This document shows positions 1,952-30,843 of a stretch of 64,000 nt of DNA, in pieces. A model generated the notes under the pieces. The model searched no databases. It had not been told where the DNA came from and was given only the letters and a program-made list of their open reading frames with translations. The DNA lies in the NCBI GenBank assembly GCA_001725415.1, contig MEGH01000010.1:1-64000 (forward strand), given 5' to 3'. Numbering within the stretch: the first letter of the stretch is position 1; the number at the start of each line of letters is the position of its first letter. The stretch comes from Pseudonocardia sp. SCN 73-27 (lineage in GTDB: Bacteria > Actinomycetota > Actinomycetes > Mycobacteriales > Pseudonocardiaceae). Made by a program: the position numbers and the translations under genes.

Positions 1952-2875
1952 GTGCCGAGCAATGACCTACTTGTCGTCATCAATTCGCTCGGTCTGCTGT
2001 TCGCGATCCTGAACTCGTTCACTCTCGGTCTGCGGTTCCGGGTGGGGCGGACGCTGGAACACTTCTTTCAGAACTGGCGACTTGCCGTACGCGCTCTGCT
2101 CGTCAATTTCGTGGTTCTTCCAGCCCTCGTCATCGGGTTCGCCGCGATCGTGCCCGTGGATGCCGACATCAAGATCGGATTCTGCATCGTCGCGCTGGCG
2201 GCAGGTGCGCCGTTCGCGCCCGCGATCACCCGTCTGGCCAAGGGCGACGTCGCCACGTCCGAGTCGCTGTTCCTGGTCATGGTGGTCGTCACGGTCGTCC
2301 TCGTGCCCTTCGTGCTGCCGCTCGCCGTGGCCGCCGTCGTGCCCGGCGTCGCACACCCTGGGATCTGGACCGTCGCCTGGCCGTTGCTCGCGTTCGTGAT
2401 CGCACCCCTGCTGATCGGCTGCCTGATGCGCCTCCGGTACGACGAGGCGGTGTCGGGCTGGGCGCGGCCCCTGCTCATCGTTCAACTCGCCGGCCTGGTC
2501 CTGTACGTCAACCTCTTCATCTTCGCGTTCACGAACCTTTTCGTCGCCGTGTGGTGGGGGGCCTACGTCGCTGCGATCGTCGTCCCGGCCCTCGGTATCG
2601 CACTCGGCAGCCTCATCAGCCGCAGGAATGCACCGATCAGGCGCGCGACGATGATCACGACCGCGCAGCGCAGCATCACCGGCGCCATTGTCGTGACGAT
2701 CTTCGACTACACCCAGCCACTGGCGAATGTGTCGGTGACGGTCATCAACACGGTCGGAATCGTCATCCTGCTGATTCTCGCTCTCGAATGGAGGAGAGCT
2801 CGATCCCGCGAGCATTCCGTTCCGGGTCCGGCCGGCGCGACGCCGGCTCGTGAAACGGCCTCGCGCGCACCGTAG
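1952..2875 (+). CDS. bile acid:sodium symporter (BASS) family transporter
   Basis: A polytopic membrane protein of about 307 residues with roughly nine or ten hydrophobic segments. The opening (NSLGLLFAILNSFTLGLRF) and the central motif with APFAPAITRLAKGD fit the BASS/ACR3 superfamily, which moves organic anions or oxyanions using the sodium or proton gradient. The GTG start at 1952 is preferred because AGGAGG ends 5 nt upstream. The charged tail after the last helix (about residue 275) is typical. Substrate is unknown. It is the first intact gene right of the tRNA-Tyr remnant and nearly abuts the convergent SGNH esterase (12 nt gap). Confidence 0.8.
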   Translation: MPSNDLLVVINSLGLLFAILNSFTLGLRFRVGRTLEHFFQNWRLAVRALLVNFVVLPALVIGFAAIVPVDADIKIGFCIVALAAGAPFAPAITRLAKGDVATSESLFLVMVVVTVVLVPFVLPLAVAAVVPGVAHPGIWTVAWPLLAFVIAPLLIGCLMRLRYDEAVSGWARPLLIVQLAGLVLYVNLFIFAFTNLFVAVWWGAYVAAIVVPALGIALGSLISRRNAPIRRATMITTAQRSITGAIVVTIFDYTQPLANVSVTVINTVGIVILLILALEWRRARSREHSVPGPAGATPARETASRAP

Positions 2876-2887
2876 GGAGGAAGCGCG

Positions 2888-3484
2888 TCAGGTGCCGATC
2901 CAGCCGAGCCACGTGGGCAGGACGAGCGCGGCGAGGTGGTCGTGGCCCGCGGCGCCGGGGTGGGCGCCGTCGCCGTCGCGGACCTCGGTGGTCCAGACGT
3001 CGTCGTCGGCAAGGTCGTGGACGACCTCGACGAAGGGCGCGCCGGCCGCGGCGCAGACGTCGCGGAACCGCGCGCTCAGCGCGACGACGCGGCGGTTCAC
3101 CGGGCCGTCGGCGATGGGCGGCGGACCGACCACGAGCGTCGGGAGGCCGGCGTCGGTGAGGAGGCGCTGCAGGTTCGCGACGCTCTCGTCAGGATCGACC
3201 CGCAGGGCGCCGTCCTCGACGATGCTGTCGTTGACGCCGAACGAGACGACCAGGCGCTCGTCGGACGCGGGCGCTCGGCGGGCCGCGACCTCCCGCTCCC
3301 AGCGTTGCAGGACCTCGCGGCTGGTGTCGCGGCGGACGCCGAGGTTGTAGGCGGTGGTCGGGATGCCGCGTCGGCCGGCGGCGGAGACGAGCCGGCCGAA
3401 CCAGCCGCGGCAGTCGGGGTCGCCGACTCCGGCGACGAACGAGTCCCCGAGGGCGATGACGCGGAGGTCCCGGGCGGTGCTCAT
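2888..3484 (-). CDS. SGNH/GDSL-family hydrolase
   Basis: A 198-residue esterase-like protein with the SGNH blocks in order: GDSF near residue 13 (catalytic Ser), a glycine in the 'LGV' region, VND in block III (SFGVNDS, oxyanion Asn), and DGAHP near the C-terminus (catalytic Asp and His). There is no signal peptide, so it probably acts in the cytoplasm on small esters. ATG at 3484 is chosen because the 27 codons upstream are Arg/Pro-rich and unlike the family. Function is a family-level call only. Confidence 0.85.
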   Translation of the reverse strand: MSTARDLRVIALGDSFVAGVGDPDCRGWFGRLVSAAGRRGIPTTAYNLGVRRDTSREVLQRWEREVAARRAPASDERLVVSFGVNDSIVEDGALRVDPDESVANLQRLLTDAGLPTLVVGPPPIADGPVNRRVVALSARFRDVCAAAGAPFVEVVHDLADDDVWTTEVRDGDGAHPGAAGHDHLAALVLPTWLGWIGT

Positions 3485-3610
3485 GGGCCGAGCGTCGCAC
3501 GGACGCCGAGGTCGCGGCCGGCGTCGCGACGTGCTCGTCGAGGTGCATCGGCTGTCGGGTTTCACGGCCCGTCTCGACCGGGGGGCGGCGGGCGTGGCGG
3601 CCCTCGACGG

Positions 3611-4291
3611 TCAGCCCAGTACCGGCATTGCGGCGGCGAGGGCCTTCCCGGCCTTCGACGGATCCAGGCGGCCGGCGCCGATCAGGACGCGTTCGGCGTC
3701 GCTAAGGTCCTGCGGGAACGCCGCTCCCGCGAGAGCTTCGACCGTCGCGCACCCCAGGCGCAGGCACTCGGCCGTCGGAGAGCCGACGGTGACGTCGCGG
3801 CTCAGGTCGAGGTGGTGCACGGCGAGCTCGACGGCCCAGGTCGCGAGGAAGTCGCCGCTCGCGAGGACCCGGCCCTGGAAGGCGACGGGATCGTCCGGCA
3901 TCCGGTCGACGGCGGTCCCCACCGCGTCGGCGGCCATCCGCAGGTGTCCGACCGCGCCGCTCGGCCGCCGGTAGGCCGACGCGGTGCGGCGGGTCCACAG
4001 GATGCCGTCGACAGGGTCGGCGCCGTCGTCGGTGGACGGGACGTCCGTGCGCCAGTAGGAGGCGGCGTCGGTGTCGGGGGCGGAGGAGCTCGGGGTGACG
4101 ACGCCGCCCAGCATCTCCTGCAGCCCGGTCCGGACGTGCACGACGAGGTCGACCGCGGCCCAGCCGTGGCAGCGGCTCGCCGTGAGCGGGTCGCTGTCGC
4201 TCGCGGATCCTGCCGCGGCGACGAAGGCGTCGGGCTGACCGAGGAACCCGGTCAGCCCGGTCGGGTGGTCGACGTGCAACGAGGCGGGCAC
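3611..4291 (-). CDS. maleylpyruvate isomerase / mycothiol-dependent enzyme family protein
   Basis: A 226-residue protein with the DinB-like MDMPI N-terminal domain found throughout mycothiol-producing actinobacteria. Likely metal ligands are visible: the His of RCHGW (about residue 42), HV in the following helix, and the HHLDL motif near residue 165. Members include mycothiol-dependent maleylpyruvate isomerase and many proteins of unknown substrate. It follows the broken VOC gene on the same strand with about 37 nt between them. Its exact start is uncertain. Confidence 0.75.
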   Translation of the reverse strand: MPASLHVDHPTGLTGFLGQPDAFVAAAGSASDSDPLTASRCHGWAAVDLVVHVRTGLQEMLGGVVTPSSSAPDTDAASYWRTDVPSTDDGADPVDGILWTRRTASAYRRPSGAVGHLRMAADAVGTAVDRMPDDPVAFQGRVLASGDFLATWAVELAVHHLDLSRDVTVGSPTAECLRLGCATVEALAGAAFPQDLSDAERVLIGAGRLDPSKAGKALAAAMPVLG

Positions 4292-4328
4292 GCACCGATG
4301 CCAGGAGCGGCGCGGCTTCTCAGTGGCG

Positions 4329-4761
4329 TCAGAGTTGCAGGGAGGCCTCGATCTCGGTGAGGGTGGCCTGGGAGGCCGGGTCGAGTTCGTGGGTGCGGAG
4401 CTCGGCGGCGACCTCGGCCGCCCGGGCGGTGTCGCCGGTCCGGGCCAGGAGCTCGACGAGGTGGAGCAGCGCGGCGACCCGTCGGGCCAGGGGCGTCGGG
4501 GTGGCGGGCGACGCCGGCGGCGAACGCGTCGAACAGTGCACCGGTGTCGGGGACGACGACGAGCACGTTACCGAGCGAGCCGGCGGGGTCGTGGGCGTCG
4601 AGACCGAAGAAGTGCAGGTCGAGAGCGCCCCGTCGGAGGGCGGCGTAGGGGTTGGGTCTGGCCTGGCGGTAGGTGACCTCGAAGTCGAGCGCCTCGTAGA
4701 AGGGGATGACGTCGTCGAGGGATCGGCACGGCAGGATCGGGACGATCTTCTCGGTGGTCAC
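4329..4761 (-). pseudogene. VOC (glyoxalase/bleomycin-resistance) gene with internal deletion and frameshift
   Basis: The N-terminal 80 residues are a clean VOC domain (KIVPILPCRSLDDVIPFY ... LDLHFFGLDAHDP ... VVVPDTGALFDAFAAG). The reading then jumps directly to a VARHPDAP segment that in full-length relatives belongs to a C-terminal helical tail, so roughly 90 codons carrying the second half of the fold seem to be missing. Near 4491-4496 the frame is lost; the rest of the tail (LLHLVELLARTGDTARAAEVAAEL) continues in another frame to a stop at 4329. The deletion cannot be a sequencing error, though the 1- or 2-nt shift could be. The product is presumably non-functional. Confidence 0.7.
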
Positions 4762-4814
4762 CCGAAAACCCTAGGGGCGATACGTCCGATTCGACACGGA
4801 CGAGTTTCGGGGTC

Positions 4815-5031
4815 GGGGCACGGCGGACGATCTCGGCGATACGGGCCTCGGTGGCGTCGTCGAATCCGGTCAGGACCCAGGCGGCCTGCATGAGCTGGTG
4901 CGGTGAGCCTCCTCGACCTCGTGGTGGGCCTTCTCGGTGAGGCCGAGGGAGAAGGTGTCGTCGTCGAGCCGGAAGAAGACGATGACGGGCGGTTTGCCGC
5001 CGATCGCGTAGCCGGGAGCGCCGTAGTACAT
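4815..5031 (-). pseudogene. frame-disrupted coding remnant, family uncertain (DUF1801-like?)
   Basis: Two protein-like stretches lie in different frames. The first, from ATG 5031, reads MYYGAPGYAIGGKPPVIVFF and continues with SLGLTEKAHHEVEE. The second, after a shift near 4900, reads QAAWVLTGFDDATEARIAEI. Together they resemble the C-terminal part of small DUF1801/YdhG-type proteins, but this is from memory and weak. No start or full domain survives. It lies between the VOC pseudogene and the hydrolase tail, so the whole interval is decayed coding sequence. Confidence 0.4.
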
Positions 5032-5041
5032 GAGCTGTGGG

Positions 5042-11081: not shown

Positions 11082-11321
11082 TCATCGGTCGGCGTCGCGG
11101 CGCCCCGACGACCGCAGCAGCAGGACCGCCGCCCCGAGCAGCACGATCCCGCCCAGCACGACCAGAACGACCAGCACGACCAGAACGACCGGCCCGGCGG
11201 GGCCGACGAGCCGGTCGCGCAGCCCGCCCACCGACGGCACGTGGTACCAGAGCACGCCGCCCACGGCGGCCGCCGCGACGACGTGCGGGTCGGGCGTCGC
11301 GTTGGCGTCGCCCTTGGTCAC
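11082..11321 (-). CDS. small single-pass membrane protein (hypothetical)
   Basis: A 79-residue protein starting 8 nt after the patatin stop. A soluble N-terminal half of about 40 residues precedes one long hydrophobic helix built on a near-repetitive VLVVLVVLVVL run and ends in Arg/Asp-rich cytoplasmic residues. The helix is encoded by tandem repeats near 11158-11191. No family was recognised. Its tight position suggests a membrane anchor or partner for the phospholipase, but that is inference, and it may not be translated. Confidence 0.5.
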   Translation of the reverse strand: MTKGDANATPDPHVVAAAAVGGVLWYHVPSVGGLRDRLVGPAGPVVLVVLVVLVVLGGIVLLGAAVLLLRSSGRRDADR

Positions 11322-11329
11322 GAACGGCG

Positions 11330-13195
11330 CTACACGTCCCCGTCGAGGGAGAGCGACGGGAGCAGGTCGCGGGTGTAGCGGTAGGCGGGATCGACGAGGG
11401 CCGGGCCGGCCTTGAAGTCGAGCAGACCCCCGGCCCCGAGCGGCGGGCGCAGCAGGGTGACCCCGGCGCCGTCGGCGAGCCGGGCCCGGTCGCCCCGGGA
11501 GCTGGCGAGCATCAGCCCGCGGACCAGCACGTCGGGAAGCGCCGGGGCGTGCAGGGGTGTACGACGCCGCACCCGCGAGCCCAGTACCCGCCAGCCCGAC
11601 AACGTCTCGCCGAAACCCGCGGTCGGGCCCGGGTCCTCCTCGGGCGCGAGGTCGACGGCCAGGATCCGGCCACCCCGCAGCATCGCGGACATGACGTCGA
11701 CGGGCACGTTGTTGAGCACCCCGCCGTCGACGAGCAGGTCACCCTCGTGCGGCACCGGCGGGTATACGCCGGGCAGCGAGATCGACGCGCGGATCGCGCG
11801 CCAGGCCGGGCCGCGGTCGTGCACCACCTCGCGGGCGTGGCCGAGCGATGCGGAGACGCAGAAGAACGGCAGCCACAGGTCCTCGATGTCCCAGCCGAAG
11901 ACGGGCACGTCGCGCAGCAGCCGGGTGACCTTGCGCGCCGACGAGTACGACACCAGCGGCAGCGTCGCGGGCACCATCGAGCCCTGCCGCACCATGGCCT
12001 GGACCGACGTCTCGAGCCGGGCCGCGTGGTCGAGGCCGCCCGCGCGCAGCCCGGCCATGATCGCCCCGATGCTGGTGCCGGCGACGGCGTCGACCTCGAC
12101 CCCCGCGTCGTCGAACGCGTGCATGACGCCGAGGTGCGCGAACCCGCGCATCCCGCCGCCGCCGAGCACCAGCCCGCGGGCGGTGCCGGCGACGTGGCGC
12201 GCCAGCCGGGCGAGGTCGGCGGCGCGGCCCTCGCGCAGGTGGTGGTGCAGGTCGACGTCGCGGCCGGCGAGCCACCGGGAGGTGCCGACGGGCTTCTCGG
12301 TTCCGGACGGATGCAGCAGCACGAGGTCGGCGCTGCGCCCCGGCCGCGCGGGCCCGGGTGCGGGGTCGGCTCCGGAGCGGGCGACGAGCAGCACCCGGTC
12401 GGCCTGCCGGACACAGCGCCGGGTCCAGGCGGTGTCGTCGGGATCGGCGACGTAGACGACGAACCGGTGCTGCTGTTCGGCCTGCTGGAGCCGGGCGACG
12501 ACCGCGCCGTTGCGGGGATCGGCGGTGTCGACGTCGGCGGCCCCGCCACCGACGGTGTCGCGGGACAGAACCGCGACCGTCCCGTGTGCGGTGAGCGCCC
12601 GGACGAGCGCGGGGACGAAGTCGCCGGGCACCGGGGCGCGGCCGGCGGGCAGCACGGCGACGGTGTTCGCCGCCTGTGGCACGGGGACGACCTCGACCGG
12701 GCGCGCCGAGAGCCGGACCAGCTGGCGGCAGAGTCCGAGCAGCGCGGCGGGGTGGCGGTGCGCGAACGTCTCGAACGCGGCGGCGGACAACGTGAGCAGC
12801 ATCGAGTCGCGGACCGCCCGGGCGCCGGCGCCCGCGGTCGCCCCGCCGAGCAGCGCGGCGGCGTCGACGACCTGGCCCGGCGCCCGCGGCGAGACGGACC
12901 CGTCGGCCCCCACGACCTCGACGCGCCCATGTCCCACCAGCAGCAGGGTGTCGCCCACGGCGATCGGCTCCCCGGCGCCGACGTGCACCGGCTCCAGGTG
13001 CGGCAGCAGCCCGCGCAGGGCGTCGCGGTCCAACCCGCCGAACACCTCCGTCCCCGACAGGAAGTCCAGCGCCGCACCGGCATCGGGGCTGTCGGGGTCG
13101 CTGAAGCTTTCGACGAGGAACAGCATCGTGCGCCGTCGCCGCCCACGACCACGCCCGGCGACGATGGCGTCGCGGTCGAAGAATTCCTCGGACAT
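11330..13195 (-). CDS. cNMP-fold / patatin-like phospholipase (NTE-like)
   Basis: A 621-residue protein of neuropathy-target-esterase type. Residues 40-165 form a cyclic-nucleotide-binding-like beta-roll, 175-335 a Rossmann-like middle region, and 340-600 a patatin domain with the oxyanion loop GGGGMRG (345-351), nucleophile S375 in GTSIGA and D490 in DGGVLNN, the catalytic dyad. It would hydrolyse phospholipid or lysophospholipid acyl esters at the membrane face. The phosphate-binding cassette of the cNMP domain lacks the usual FGE and Arg, so cAMP binding is doubtful. ATG 13195 lies 2 nt after the ATPase stop, showing tight coupling to the kinase/receiver/ATPase genes upstream. Confidence 0.85.
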   Translation of the reverse strand: MSEEFFDRDAIVAGRGRGRRRRTMLFLVESFSDPDSPDAGAALDFLSGTEVFGGLDRDALRGLLPHLEPVHVGAGEPIAVGDTLLLVGHGRVEVVGADGSVSPRAPGQVVDAAALLGGATAGAGARAVRDSMLLTLSAAAFETFAHRHPAALLGLCRQLVRLSARPVEVVPVPQAANTVAVLPAGRAPVPGDFVPALVRALTAHGTVAVLSRDTVGGGAADVDTADPRNGAVVARLQQAEQQHRFVVYVADPDDTAWTRRCVRQADRVLLVARSGADPAPGPARPGRSADLVLLHPSGTEKPVGTSRWLAGRDVDLHHHLREGRAADLARLARHVAGTARGLVLGGGGMRGFAHLGVMHAFDDAGVEVDAVAGTSIGAIMAGLRAGGLDHAARLETSVQAMVRQGSMVPATLPLVSYSSARKVTRLLRDVPVFGWDIEDLWLPFFCVSASLGHAREVVHDRGPAWRAIRASISLPGVYPPVPHEGDLLVDGGVLNNVPVDVMSAMLRGGRILAVDLAPEEDPGPTAGFGETLSGWRVLGSRVRRRTPLHAPALPDVLVRGLMLASSRGDRARLADGAGVTLLRPPLGAGGLLDFKAGPALVDPAYRYTRDLLPSLSLDGDV

Positions 13196-13197
13196 CG

Positions 13198-13950
13198 CTA
13201 CGCCATCAGGTCGGCGGCCAGCGCCCGGTACCGATCGGTGACCGGATGGTCCGGGTTGTCGACGACGAACACGCCCGCGCTCGACAGCGCCATCAGCTCG
13301 TCGGAGTGGGGCACGACCGTCGCGACCCGGCATTCGTAGGCCTTCTCGACGCGCTCGCGGACCTCGTCCTCGTCGAACACCGCGGGCGACTTGTTGACGA
13401 CGAGCACCATCGTCGGCACCGCGAGCTTGCGCGCCACCGTGACCGTGACCTGCGTGCCCTCGTAGTCCTGGTGGTCGGGGCGCAGCACGATCGCGAGTGC
13501 GTCCGACATCGCGATGGCCAGCAACGTCTCCTCGTTGAGGCCCGGGTGGGTGTCGAGCAGCAGGACGTCGAGGTCGAGAGCGTCGATCAGCTCGCGGAAC
13601 CCGTCGCCCAGACGGCCGACGTCGTAGCCGTCGTGCATGACACGCGCGATGTCCTGCGGCGCGACACTCGACGGCACCAGCCAGATCCGGCCCCCACCGG
13701 TCAGCGCCGGTGGGGTGACCTCGTAGGCCGCCTCCGGCATCGTGCACCGCCCCCACAGGTAGCTGTTGAGGCTGTGCCCGACCCGGTCCTGGTCGAGCCC
13801 GAACAGCACGTGGATGCCCGGCGACAGGATGTCGGTGTCGACGACGCCGACCCGCCGGCCCTGCGCCGCCAGCAGCGCCGCCACGTTGGCCGAGGTGTTG
13901 GACTTCCCCGTGCCGCCCCGGAAGGAGTGGATGGAGACGATTCGGCTCAC
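13198..13950 (-). CDS. MinD/ParA-type P-loop ATPase
   Basis: A 250-residue SIMIBI ATPase. The deviant Walker A is FRGGTGKSN (residues 10-18); the signature lysine of KGGTGKT is replaced by Arg. Walker A-prime is VVDTDILSPG and Walker B is VLLLDTHPGLNEE. Such ATPases dimerise with ATP on membrane or nucleoid and act as positional or on/off switches. There is no partner ParB or MinC/MinE gene, so it is not a chromosome- or septum-positioning locus. It overlaps the receiver gene upstream by 4 nt and is followed after 2 nt by the patatin gene, which suggests it links phosphosignalling to the phospholipase (inference). Confidence 0.85.
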   Translation of the reverse strand: MSRIVSIHSFRGGTGKSNTSANVAALLAAQGRRVGVVDTDILSPGIHVLFGLDQDRVGHSLNSYLWGRCTMPEAAYEVTPPALTGGGRIWLVPSSVAPQDIARVMHDGYDVGRLGDGFRELIDALDLDVLLLDTHPGLNEETLLAIAMSDALAIVLRPDHQDYEGTQVTVTVARKLAVPTMVLVVNKSPAVFDEDEVRERVEKAYECRVATVVPHSDELMALSSAGVFVVDNPDHPVTDRYRALAADLMA

Positions 13951-14669
13951 GGACTCTCCGTCCCGGCGCCGCCGCCGCGCAGGCTCGCAGCCTTGCGCTG
14001 CAGGTCGGCGAAGTAGTCGGTCTCGGTGATCTCGGCGACGCGCCGCGCCGCCCGGGCCTGGTCGATCTCGATGCGCAGCGCCCCCACCTGCTGTTCGAGG
14101 CGCTGCTCGCGGGCACGGACCTCGCGCGCCATCGTCTGGAAGGTCCGCGCCAGCCCGCCGAGGGCGTCGTCGCGGGCGGCGACCCCGTCGAGCGTCGACG
14201 GCGTGAACGTTCCCGCCTCCACCTCACCGGCGGCGCGCAGGACCTGCCCGACCTGCTCCAGGTAGTCCTGCTCGACGTCGCGCAGCCACTTGCGTGACAG
14301 GCCCGCCCCGATCCGCGCCCGCAGCAGCACGGGATCGAACGGCTTGGGCAGGAAGTCCTCCGCGCCCAGCTCGATGCACCGCACCGCCTCGGCGGTCTCG
14401 TCGGCACCGGAGACGACGATGACCGGGACGTGGCGCAGCCGCGCGTCGGCCCGCATCCGGGCCAGCACCTCGTGCCCGTCGAGGCGGGGCATCAGCAGGT
14501 CGAGCAGTACGAGGTCGATCCCGGGGGAGGCGAGCCGGTCGAGCGCCTCGACGCCGTCGCCGGCCGTCTCGACATTCAGCCCCTCACGCTCCAGCCCGCG
14601 TCGCAGGAGCAGCCGGTTGGTGGGGTCGTCGTCGACGACGAGGACGGTCCCGGTGCGCTGGTCGCTCAC
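13947..14669 (-). CDS. response regulator, receiver plus coiled-coil, no DNA-binding domain
   Basis: A 240-residue protein. Residues 8-125 are a receiver domain with acidic DDD at 13-15, phospho-acceptor D57 in LLDLLMP and K in LPKPFDP. The rest has no HTH or enzyme domain; it holds a helical region ([20 protein letters not shown], roughly residues 170-230) predicted to be coiled coil. Output is therefore probably by protein-protein contact, most likely with the adjacent ATPase. Start and stop overlap neighbours by 4 nt on both sides. Confidence 0.88.
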
Positions 14670-17647
14670 GCGCCGGCCACCTCCTTCTCAGGGCCGGGGA
14701 GCGCGGCGCGGAGCTCGGCCCGCAGCGGTGCCAGCGCGTCGGCGATCGCAGTGACGGCGCCGGGGTCGAGGTCACCGGCGGCGGCCCGTTCCTCCACCGC
14801 GGCGCAGCGCTGCGACAACGCGGTGGCGCCGAACAGCGTGGCGTTGGACTTGAGGGTGTGCGCGGCGCGGCGGACCCGCGGCGCGTCGGCGGCGGCGAGG
14901 CCCTCGCGCAGGTCGGCCTCGAGCACCGGAGCGTTGGTGGCGAACTCGCCCACCAGCTCGGCGGCGACGTCGGCACCGTACGAGGAGACGAGCTCTCCGA
15001 GATCGGCCTGCTGTCGTGTCCCGACGGGCGGGGCCGGGCTGCGGTCCAGCGCCGCGGCCAGGTCGGCGATCCGGACCGGCTTGGTCAGGTAGTCGTCCAT
15101 CCCCGCGGCCAGACACTCCTCGCGGGCGCCCGCCATCGCGTTGGCGGTCAACGCGACCAGCCACGGCCGTGACTCCGGCGGCCGGGCGGCGGTGATGCGG
15201 CGCGCGGTCTCCAGGCCGTCGAGCTCCGGCATCTGCACGTCGAGCAGGACGACGTCGTACTCCCGTTCCTCCAACGCCGCCAGCACCTCCAGACCGGTCG
15301 CGGCGGTGTCGGCACGGTGGCCGAGGCGTTCGAGCAGCAGCAACCCGACCCGCCGGCCGACGGGGTTGTCGTCGGCGAGCAGGAGGCGGAGCTCGTGGGA
15401 CGCCCGTCGTTCGACAGGGACGTCGGCAGGTCCGGCGTCCCTCGCGCTCGTGTCGAGCAACCCGACCAGCGTCTCCGCCAGCGGACCGCGGCGGACGGGC
15501 TTGGTCAGCCACGCGTCGATCGGCGCGGCCGGGTCACGGTCGGCGCCCAGCGACGACAGGCACACCGTCGGCACCCGGTCGATCCCGGCGAGCGCGGTGG
15601 CGAACGCAGCGCCGTCGAGACCCGGCATCAGCAGATCGGTGACGACGACGTCGAACCGCGCCCCCTCCCGGACCCAGCCCAGTGCCTCCTCGGCCGTCGC
15701 GGCAGCGCGGGCCGTCATGCCCCAGGACGCGCAGTGCGCCACCAGGATCCGGCGGTTCGTGGCGTTGTCGTCGACGACCAGCGCCGACCGCCCCCGCAAC
15801 GACTCCACCGGCCCGTCCGACGCCGTCCCCGGCCGCTCGGCCGGCGCACCGACCAGGGTCACCGTGAACGTCGACCCCCGGCCCGGCTCGCTCACGACGA
15901 CGACCGTGCCACCCATCAGCTCCGCCAGCCGCCTGCTGATCACCAGCCCCAGCCCGGTGCCGCCGTGGCGGCGCGTCGCCGACCCGTCGACCTGGCTGAA
16001 CGAGCGGAACAGCAACGCCATCTGCTCGGGAGCAAGGCCGATCCCGGTGTCGGCGACGTCGATGCGCAGCGCCCACACGTCGCCGTCCCGGTGCGCCGAC
16101 AGGGTCACGACGACCTCGCCGGACTCGGTGAACTTCACCGCGTTGCCCACGAGGTTGACCAGGATCTGGCGCAGCCGCCCGGGATCACCCAGGACCGCCT
16201 CCGGGGCGTCGCCGTCGACCGCCGCCACCAGCTCCAAGCCCTTCGCCGCGGCCCGGGGCGCCAGCAGCCCGAGGGTGTCCTCGATGCATTCGCGCGGGTC
16301 GAACGGCTTCCGGACCAGCTCCAGCTTCCCGGCCTCGATCTTGGAGAAGTCGAGCACGTCGTTGATGACGGTGAGCAGCCCGTCGGCGCTCTGCGCGATC
16401 ACGCCGGTGTAGTCGCGCTGCTCGTCGGACAGCGGTGTCGCCGACAGCAGCTCGGTCATCCCGATGACGGCGTTCATCGGGGTGCGAATCTCGTGGCTCA
16501 TGTTGGCCAGGAACGCGCTCTTGGCCTCGTTGGCCTCGTCGGCGGCGGCCCGCGCGGCCTGCGCCTCCTCGAACAACCGGGCCGCGGTGATCGCGCCGGC
16601 CAGTTGCCCCGCCACGGTCTCGGCCAGCGCCAGCTCCGCGGCCGAGAACCGGCGGTCGCGCTCCCCGGTGTCGAGCAGCACCACGCCGATCACCTCGTCG
16701 CGGGCCAGCAGCGGGGCCGCGACGAGCCCACCGCTGAACCGGCCCCGCCCGACCAGGCGACGCAGCAGCCCGTCGGGCGAGCCCGAGGGCGTCCAGACCG
16801 CGCGACGCTGTGCGAGCGCACGCCCGATGGGGCCGTTGTCGTCGCGCCCGAGCTGGGCCCCCGATGTGAAACCGCTGCCGTGCGCGGCCTGCACCCGCAG
16901 CGCGCCGTCGGTCCCGTCGACGAGCGCGACCGCGACGGCGGGGACGCGGAACAGGTCGGCGGTGTCGTCGGCCGCGCGGTCGAGCACCGTGCGCAACGTC
17001 GGCGCCGACGCCACCGTCCGCGTCACCCGACCCAGCACCGCCAGCTGACGACGGTCCTGCGTGAGGCTCTGCGCGATCGCCCCCGCGACCGACGCGATGA
17101 TCAGCCCGATGCCCATCCGGTAGGTGATCGACACGACGAGGAACGGGTGCCCGTAGACGATGGTGCCGACCGCCTCGCGGATCGTGTAGACGACCGTCAG
17201 CGCTCCGATCGTCCACATCGCCCCGCGGAGCTGGAAGCGGATCGCCGCCTCCATCGGCAGCACGTACAGCACCGCCCAGATCGCCGTCTCGGTGTCGAAC
17301 GTGTACACCGCGACCAGGCCGACGAACACGACCGCATTGAGCAGCAACGCCAGCACACTGATCCGGCGCGCCCGCCGCAGCGTCGTCATCGACGGGATCG
17401 CCCGCCAGAACGCGACGTTGCCCGCGGCGAGCAGGAATGTCAACGCGAGGGCCGCCTCCAGCAACCCCGGCGGGTACGGCAGGTAGTAGGTGAGCACCTG
17501 GACCAGCGCGAACGCCACCCCGCCCCACCGGATCCGGACCATGATCCGTTCGGCGCGGACCAGCCGGGCGAGCTCGGCGGTCTCGGCGGTCTCGAACTCG
17601 CCGGCGCCGATGGACGCCACCACGTCCGATCGTCGCCGCGCCGTCAT
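14666..17647 (-). CDS. hybrid sensor histidine kinase (7TM-like, GAF, HisKA, HATPase, REC, REC, Hpt)
   Basis: A 993-residue phosphorelay protein. Residues 35-195 hold six or seven hydrophobic segments, 200-355 a GAF domain, 375-440 HisKA with H385 in [10 protein letters not shown], 485-600 HATPase_c with N502 and glycine-rich boxes ([19 protein letters not shown]), 620-735 receiver 1 with D671, 752-870 receiver 2 with D803, and about 890-985 an Hpt domain with H930 in AAHTLKSN. All phosphotransfer residues are present, so a His-Asp-His-Asp relay to the stand-alone receiver encoded next is plausible. The ligand sensed by the membrane or GAF region is unknown. It is the first gene of a minus-strand operon reaching to about 11.1 kb. 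Confidence 0.92.
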
Positions 17648-29859: not shown

Positions 29860-30843
29860 TCACGACACCGAGACGGCCTGCAGCGCCGCGACGACCGCCT
29901 CCCTGCCGAGCACGACGGCGTCCTCGATGCGCGGGACGTCGACGGTGAGCCCACGGACGCCGGCCGACCGGGCGGGGGTGATCGCCATCAGGTGGGCGTC
30001 GCCGCGGTCGGGATGGGCGGCGTCGGAGAGCAGGTCGAGGCTGTCGGCGTGGCGGCGCACGTCCTGGGTCATCGCGCCGAGGCCGGGGACGACGACGTCT
30101 ATCCCCCGCGCCCACAGCGGTGGACGCGTCCCGGGGTCGGAGCGGCGCAGCTCGGGGACGGTGCGGGTGAGCAGGGCGAGAACGTGGGTGGCGCCGTCGC
30201 GCAGCGCGCGGGCGACGGGCATGGGGTCGCTGACCGAGCCGTCGAGGAACCGGCGGTCGCCGACGAGCACGGGCGGCCCGGCGAGCCACGGGATCGACGC
30301 GGTGGCCCGCATGACGCGCTTCCAGGTGTCGCGGTCGGGCAGCCGCTCGAGGACGTGCGGGGTCATGTCGGCGGCGTCGGTGACGACGACCCGCAGCGGG
30401 ATCGGGCTGTCGCGCAGCGCGTCCCAGTTCGTCGGCTTGACGTGGACGAGGATGTGGTCGATCAGATGGTCCAGCGACACCATCGGTTTGCGTGTGCCGA
30501 GCCGGCGGGGGTCGATGAACTCCTTGCAGGCCATGTCGTCGGGGAAGATCCGGGACGCGTCGTAGCCGTGGCCCAGCACCAGCGCGGTGCCGACGAACGC
30601 GCCCGCCGACACCCCGTAGACGACGTCGAAGGCGTCCGAGAGCCCGGCGGTCTCCAGGGCGTGCACCATCCCGCCTGCGTAGGCGCCGCGCATCCCGCCG
30701 CCGCCGACCACGAGCGCGATCCGGTGCTCGTCGCTGCGCGCGAGGGGCTTGCTGCCCTCGGCGCGCCGGCGCAGCAGCGCGCGCACGACCTCGGCGTCGC
30801 CCGACAGCTCCGCGTGGGCGGAGGGGAGCGGCGCGGACGGCAT
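29860..30843 (-). CDS. patatin-like phospholipase (RssA/YlbK type)
   Basis: A 327-residue patatin: oxyanion loop GGGGMRGAYAGG (47-58), nucleophile S79 in YGVSAG, and D201 in FLDGSVSD. This is the short cytoplasmic patatin type that acts on phospholipid or lysophospholipid acyl chains. It is unlike the fused cNMP-patatin at 11.3 kb and stands alone. No signal peptide. Confidence 0.85.
   Translation of the reverse strand: MPSAPLPSAHAELSGDAEVVRALLRRRAEGSKPLARSDEHRIALVVGGGGMRGAYAGGMVHALETAGLSDAFDVVYGVSAGAFVGTALVLGHGYDASRIFPDDMACKEFIDPRRLGTRKPMVSLDHLIDHILVHVKPTNWDALRDSPIPLRVVVTDAADMTPHVLERLPDRDTWKRVMRATASIPWLAGPPVLVGDRRFLDGSVSDPMPVARALRDGATHVLALLTRTVPELRRSDPGTRPPLWARGIDVVVPGLGAMTQDVRRHADSLDLLSDAAHPDRGDAHLMAITPARSAGVRGLTVDVPRIEDAVVLGREAVVAALQAVSVS

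Follow-up and report, generated by a model that had tools for sequence, protein, structure and literature searches.

How a phosphorelay that ends in a receiver without a DNA-binding domain hands on its signal, and what it has to do with the MinD-like ATPase and the patatin phospholipase encoded directly behind it, is the question raised by four genes of Pseudonocardia sp. SCN 73-27 (assembly GCA_001725415.1). They lie on the minus strand of the window, that is, the first 64,000 nucleotides (nt) of contig MEGH01000010.1 analysed here as a whole, and encode a hybrid histidine kinase of 993 amino acids (aa) (14666-17647; open reading frame (ORF) call, with an alternative later start possible at 17623), a receiver protein (response regulator) of 240 aa (13947-14669), a MinD-like ATPase of 250 aa (13198-13950) and a patatin of the bacterial NTE type of 621 aa (11330-13195), all four supported by both ORF call and Pfam. 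The tight packing of the four genes stated in an initial annotation of this DNA is borne out, the kinase and receiver genes and the receiver and ATPase genes each overlapping by 4 nt and 2 nt separating the ATPase gene from the patatin gene. Based on sequence comparisons, we propose, with somewhat more belief than doubt, that the locus encodes a modular signalling pathway of sensor, tail, ATPase and tagged effector, in which the patatin would stand under relay control via an ATPase switch. The conserved core appears to be the ATPase family together with a coiled-coil tail, carried here by the response regulator, and the patatin appears to be an exchangeable part.

Two-component phosphorelays exist whose response regulator has no DNA-binding domain, and the locus resembles them in its hybrid kinase with Hpt and its receiver without a DNA-binding domain; what sets it apart is a predicted output through a coiled-coil tail that goes with a MinD-like ATPase family of its own. 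The kinase has hydrophobic N-terminal segments and Pfam matches to GAF, HisKA, HATPase_c, two Response_reg stretches and Hpt, and the receiver protein has Response_reg as its sole Pfam domain, with no DNA-binding domain detected by Pfam. A complete His-Asp-His-Asp series is present, namely H385 in HisKA, D671 and D803 in the two kinase receivers, H930 in Hpt and the phosphoacceptor D57 in the receiver protein. The initial annotation had read both proteins correctly, the first as a hybrid kinase with GAF, two receivers, Hpt and all phosphotransfer residues (Pfam and residue check), and the second as a DNA-binding-free receiver with a coiled coil, which proves to be a conserved tail.

This tail covers approximately residues 167-231 of the response regulator (about 65 residues; 13977-14171, minus strand). 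In the window protein it carries no Pfam name; it gave no convincing match in the PDB (best E 0.23), and is matched only once in the window's own genome (E 3.7e-27). Among the collected loci (designated below by L numbers), it was found in 64 ORFs with scores of at least 64 bits, with a common pattern of a HAMP-like stretch, then a coiled coil, then the terminal motif EI..TD/E-Y/F-F..L..KA...R, and one Glu and one Arg are invariant across 27 aligned copies. The same tail terminates other sensor proteins with HAMP, Cache, GAF or cNMP inputs near the same ATPase family; in 40 tail proteins chosen from 73, the domains found were HAMP (20), cNMP (8), receiver (7), GAF (7), dCache_1 (6), FHA (2), PrsW (2) and cyclase (2). 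In a recurrent Chloroflexota block (L069 2850-7800; similar in L060 and L065), genes for a PrsW-like protease, a cNMP-tail protein, the ATPase and a protein of 70 aa that contains cysteine lie together with a winged-helix-like gene, and a cyclase-domain gene lies near the L069-type block.

The second half of the proposed core had been described as a ParA-like ATPase with an Arg-type deviant Walker A, and this description holds. The protein matches the Pfam families ParA (E 6e-18), AAA_31 and CbiA as well as the archaeal MinD structure 1hyq (E 1e-16), and its P-loop reads SFRGGTGKSN, with Arg at the position where MinD carries the signature Lys. The deviant Walker P-loop and the model matches place it in the ParA/MinD superfamily, but the signature lysine is absent; among 126 family members above 300 bits, this position holds Arg in 113 and His in 1, the pattern being unmatched in 12. 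The curated MinD cut-offs are not reached (TIGR01968, 48 bits versus 213; TIGR01969, 90 versus 202), and no curated NCBIfam model exceeded its cut-off for the ATPase among the best 25 of 26 matches. Second ATPase paralogues lie near the main ATPase in Chloroflexota (L039 8149-8973, L045 6950-7708 and L052 11919-12692), some of the Chloroflexota second copies having altered P-loops (SARAGIGKST, SFHSGTGTSN), and it is possible that these paralogues are heterodimer partners of the main ATPase. An anti-phage defence reading of the locus was rejected, as the PADLOC matches were partial, the strongest covering 45 ATPase residues around the P-loop (E 1e-9).

Tail and ATPase travel together well beyond this genus. 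When a species-level genome collection was queried with the ATPase, the best 80 of 257 relatives (58-92% identity) came mostly from Chloroflexota, with others from Pseudonocardia, Rubrobacter and Thermoleophilia. Neighbours were counted in these 80 nearest loci, in 20 further loci (6 of them dropped, their genomes being already present) and in the window, with 2 loci in which no ATPase was called standing outside the count; in the 93 loci with a called ATPase, a tail gene adjoined an ATPase gene in 44, stood two genes off in 12 and further off in 6, and none was called in 31. At the genome level, a Chloroflexota draw of 201 genomes, centred on a genome known to have tail and ATPase, contained both in 25, the ATPase only in 1, the tail only in 2 (one marginal, E 2e-4) and neither in 173 (Fisher p 1.7e-28). 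Among 396 Actinomycetota genomes, including that of the window, 8 had both, 1 the ATPase only (weaker, 203 bits) and 2 the tail only (E 4e-4, marginal, in one of them), while the other 385 lacked the two (Fisher p 2.9e-14). Of the 25 Pseudonocardia genomes searched for tail and ATPase, 6 held the pair and 19 had no match to either. The ATPase family (E <1e-25) was met in 2 of 200 genomes of a draw centred on a Contendobacter metagenome-assembled genome (MAG) and in 1 of 199 of a draw centred on a Bacillota MAG, the centre counted in each.

The patatin has a much narrower distribution. A full-length operon-type patatin occurs in 10 of 62 Pseudonocardia genomes, window included (E at most 3.2e-180; next match 1.1e-45), and all 10 keep the order kinase, receiver with tail, ATPase and patatin, four of them with a gene of 61-72 aa between kinase and receiver (L048, L101, L146 and L149). 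The initial annotation had suggested a neighbourhood search for this gene order, which is found to be kept in 10 genomes of the genus and was seen in no other genus, the comparison covering the best 80 of the 257 loci and the genomes of the draws, with no search centred on cyanobacteria. Elsewhere, a polytopic permease-like protein is encoded after the ATPase; this is so in Rubrobacter and Thermoleophilia and at a single locus of Chloroflexota, L046. Amino-acid permease families are matched over the Pfam cut-off in L037, L046, L140 and L150 and below it in Rubrobacter L134, L135 giving no match; the permease-like proteins are all homologous, with 39-73% identity over at least 314 residues (pieces of 171 and 195 aa aside). 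In L137, L140, L142 and L150 the genes of the relay lie behind those of the ATPase and the permease.

In an ATPase tree of 132 rows, the patatin-type ATPases form one clade (100/99), which is joined by the Rubrobacter permease type (100/92) and then by the Thermoleophilia permease type (100/97), and with midpoint rooting the patatin- and permease-type clades fall within Chloroflexota diversity. Because of this nesting, a single exchange of permease for patatin at the same operon place is the simplest reading, and the patatin looks like a lineage-specific replacement of the permease-like protein. That the patatin lies within the operon in one clade only, among the loci seen, would also suit a phosphorelay-ATPase pair that merely shares a transcript with a lipase of separate function; we regard this as improbable, given that the order is kept in 10 genomes of two subclades and that the patatin has the same place as the outgroup permease-like protein and a similar N-terminal element.

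Some further features of the permease-type loci may be recorded here. In L135 (2405-5070) the permease-type gene by the ATPase is divided between two frames of 171 and 733 aa that overlap, which may reflect an assembly frameshift, and is followed by another copy (645 aa). L140 encodes, after the kinases of its permease-type operon, a receiver fused to a pyridine-nucleotide-disulphide oxidoreductase (1136-2794), which hints at a redox input; the corresponding place in L137 and L142 is taken by receiver genes that are comparable to it by length alone. Genes of 110-130 aa (L105 4322-4696; L108 2346-2681), belonging to neighbour clusters of 32 and 23 members, look like winged helices, with no Pfam match in the two scanned representatives, and the L046 permease-type protein appears to have such a stretch at its end.

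What the patatin appears to share with the permease-like protein is a basic N-terminal element of about 25 residues (residues 5-29; 13109-13183, minus strand), which was traced by profile, pairwise scoring and pattern. In the patatin the element is Arg-rich with hydrophobic residues after it, and the Rubrobacter permease-like protein, which starts LLDRESVLAGGVPARRANTVLFLIE, has a basic element similar to the N-terminus of the window patatin. When 1366 called genes were scored, by the first 60 aa of each, against the first 45 aa of the window patatin, the patatin orthologues were followed by 11 rows (scores 62-40), which stand for 8 distinct genes because some genomes occur twice, and the next other gene scored 36. 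All 8 lie within three genes of an ATPase of this family; apart from a fragmentary copy and a protein of 195 aa related to the permease N-terminus, they are permease-type genes. When the window element was shuffled, 0 of 5000 trials scored as high as the Rubrobacter proteins. The element pattern was present at 10 of 10 operon patatin loci, and 26 non-operon patatin loci gave one match, dissimilar and chance-like; this control was done by pattern because the iterative N-terminal profile is circular, with the patatin among its seeds, and missed 4 of the 10 true operon copies. An N-terminal element common to the patatin and the permease-like protein is likely real, not proven.

Partners of ParA/MinD (A/D) ATPases are described as activating the ATPase via short positively charged N-terminal extensions on varied domains (PMC7993993; PMC10241942), and a neighbour with a predicted basic N-terminal peptide accompanies the ATPase at all 10 operon patatin loci. 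Because the patatin and permease elements fit the published N-termini of such partners, we propose a mechanism that leads from relay through tail and ATPase to the tag of the effector. First, the GAF/membrane part of the kinase would sense a signal and bring about His-Asp-His-Asp transfer to D57 of the receiver. Phosphorylation of the receiver could alter the state of its coiled-coil tail, and the tail in turn may set the nucleotide or dimer state of the ATPase. Upon ATP binding, the ATPase dimer would dock on the Arg-rich N-terminus of the patatin, as the published activating partners do, and docking could turn on the phospholipase, release it or recruit it to the membrane. In other bacteria, the same tail ends HAMP/Cache, GAF, cNMP or FHA input proteins, and in some relatives the effector would be the amino-acid-permease-like membrane protein.

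Part of this evidence could be read otherwise. Published partners link cargo to ParA/MinD ATPases by basic N-termini (PMC10241942; PMC7993993), and the effectors, a lipase or a polytopic membrane protein, would both have reason for membrane placement, so the ATPase might place the patatin rather than switch it, with the N-terminus as cargo link and the phosphorelay timing placement. We consider such a positioning system unlikely, as no positioning surface was identified and the ATPases, mostly 249-265 aa long, could scarcely accommodate a membrane helix C-terminal to the core. Still less likely in our judgement is that the tail alone activates or inhibits the ATPase and the effector element has another purpose such as membrane binding. 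Its composition, Arg-rich and then hydrophobic, would agree with that purpose, and tail-ATPase co-occurrence is far broader than the effector element; however, a membrane tag would be superfluous on a polytopic permease, and the sharp difference in element pattern between operon and non-operon patatin loci speaks against it.

The modular pathway with docking on a tagged effector is the reading that we prefer, and several observations weigh against it. The co-occurrence tests ignore kinship; 31 of the 93 ATPase neighbourhoods are without a called tail gene, some of them on short contigs and one (L150) with a tail gene missed by the gene caller. The mirror-tree correlation of neighbours was 0.90 (29 loci with two ATPases) against 0.81-0.85 with the other ATPase, and since this is little above the latter value, the signal is mostly shared ancestry; mirror-tree support for a tail-ATPase contact, being inseparable from shared ancestry, was rejected. 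As to the N-terminal element, the second patatin subclade shows only a weak similarity, and shuffles there reach the Rubrobacter scores 19-91 times in 5000 (L048, L101 and L147) or 3-8 times in 5000 (L149), and the permeases of L142 (34) and L140 (31) score inside the background. A permease-only profile gave its best patatin at E 0.04, the window patatin at 1.3 and an unrelated ORF at 1.6, and a patatin-only profile found a Rubrobacter copy first at E 0.038, followed by an unrelated ORF at 0.055. In the patatin gene of genome G005 (L144), the element is immediately preceded by a stop codon. The initial annotation had already envisaged a non-transcriptional route from phosphorelay through receiver and ATPase to phospholipase, which is favoured by the order kept in 10 Pseudonocardia genomes, the tail-ATPase co-occurrence and the shared N-terminal element; it had missed the tail and ATPase as a conserved unit, the patatin as a likely replacement and the degeneration of the cNMP domain.

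This degeneration concerns the effector itself. The patatin comprises a cNMP-fold domain (approximately residues 45-153; 12737-13063), an NTE_Ploop domain (PF24179; residues 177-324; 12224-12667) and a Patatin catalytic domain (residues 342-501; 11693-12172), all recognised by Pfam on the minus strand, and this domain order, together with an oxyanion loop (GGGGMRG), GTSIG with S375 and VDGG with D490, is that of bacterial NTE-type enzymes. The catalytic dyad claimed for it at the outset was confirmed by motif check (S375, D490), and GGGxRG, GxSxG and DGG are kept in all 10 operon patatins. The claim of a cNMP-fold/patatin protein stands as to the NTE-type domain order, but the cNMP match is sub-threshold (26.5 bits, under the Pfam cut-off of 27.5) and the ligand residues are gone: at the aligned places of the phosphate-binding cassette, none of the 10 operon patatins has the Glu or the Arg, and all 9 NTE relatives from outside the operon that were compared have the two. 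Because these residues are lost while the catalytic motifs stay, the lipase seems freed from cyclic nucleotides, and the operon phospholipase probably no longer answers to them. A cyclic-nucleotide-regulated NTE-type esterase that the ATPase just modulates would be in keeping with the cNMP fold and NTE_Ploop being still recognisable, and is highly improbable in view of the same cassette comparison. The idea that NTE_Ploop is a MinD-like domain pairing with the ATPase was set aside and remains an idea, the profile comparison being not significant (probability 0.3%).

The components are of known kinds, and it is their combination, the tail and the tagged effectors that appear undescribed. With A/D ATPases and their activating partners (MinD-MinE, ParA-ParB, PomZ-PomX, McdA-McdB) the locus shares the deviant Walker P-loop superfamily and a neighbour with a putative basic N-terminal element, but it has Arg for the signature Lys, its widely conserved companion is a sensor tail, and a lipase or permease-like protein would be tagged in place of DNA, Min or carboxysome cargo. 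With bacterial NTE-type patatins it shares the full order of cNMP, NTE_Ploop and Patatin domains, from which it departs by the lost cNMP ligand residues, the basic N-terminal element and the ATPase operon. In TadZ/CpaE, a receiver-like domain is linked to a MinD-like ATPase in one fused pilus-assembly protein; here the two stand in an operon with an exchangeable effector, not in one fusion. RssB belongs to the response regulators that lack a DNA-binding output, and to our knowledge the rssA-rssB pair comes without such an ATPase, hybrid kinase or tail. Escherichia coli rssA shares an operon with rssB, and RssB acts in RpoS degradation (PMC3469383). The likeness lies in a patatin-like gene (NCBIfam names RssA patatin-like phospholipase RssA) and a response regulator gene in one operon, to which ATPase, hybrid kinase and tail are added here. 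No account of this system was found in the open-licence literature searched, within which the remark that no bacterial system of this make-up is known also holds.

With less assurance than for the pathway itself, and leaning slightly towards doubt, we suggest that the tail and the Arg-signature ATPase constitute an undescribed class of bacterial signal output, wherein many sensors would share a tail driving a nucleotide switch, and this switch would dock on an N-terminal tag that can pass between unrelated effectors (phospholipase, amino-acid-type permease), the Pseudonocardia NTE-type lipase having been captured by gaining the tag and losing cyclic-nucleotide control. If this is true, sensors, two-component and other, would reach a lipid enzyme or a transporter by way of a MinD-type ATPase and without transcription. 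With the tail module and the tag as guides, further sensor-effector pairs of Chloroflexota and Actinomycetota could then be recognised by sequence, and the locus would be an example of effector replacement at a fixed operon place.

The surroundings of the four genes differ between loci. A small membrane ORF of 79 aa (11082-11321, minus strand; ORF call) follows the patatin gene after 8 nt and had been taken for a fifth member, which is not borne out: because comparison with the 2546 ORFs of 13 operon loci from relatives gave no homologue (best E 1.7) and because it overlaps the adjoining gene for a GyrI-like domain protein, it is not counted as part of the operon and was rejected as a component of the system. 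A stand-alone second patatin-like gene (327 aa) lies in the window at 29860-30843 on the minus strand. Upstream of the window kinase are genes for an SBF-like transporter and a MerR protein. In L145 a LuxR-type AAA_16 regulator, identified by a domain scan of that locus, precedes the kinase (2297-5038), and genes of 893-913 aa, in length like this regulator, precede the kinase in L144 and L146-L149.

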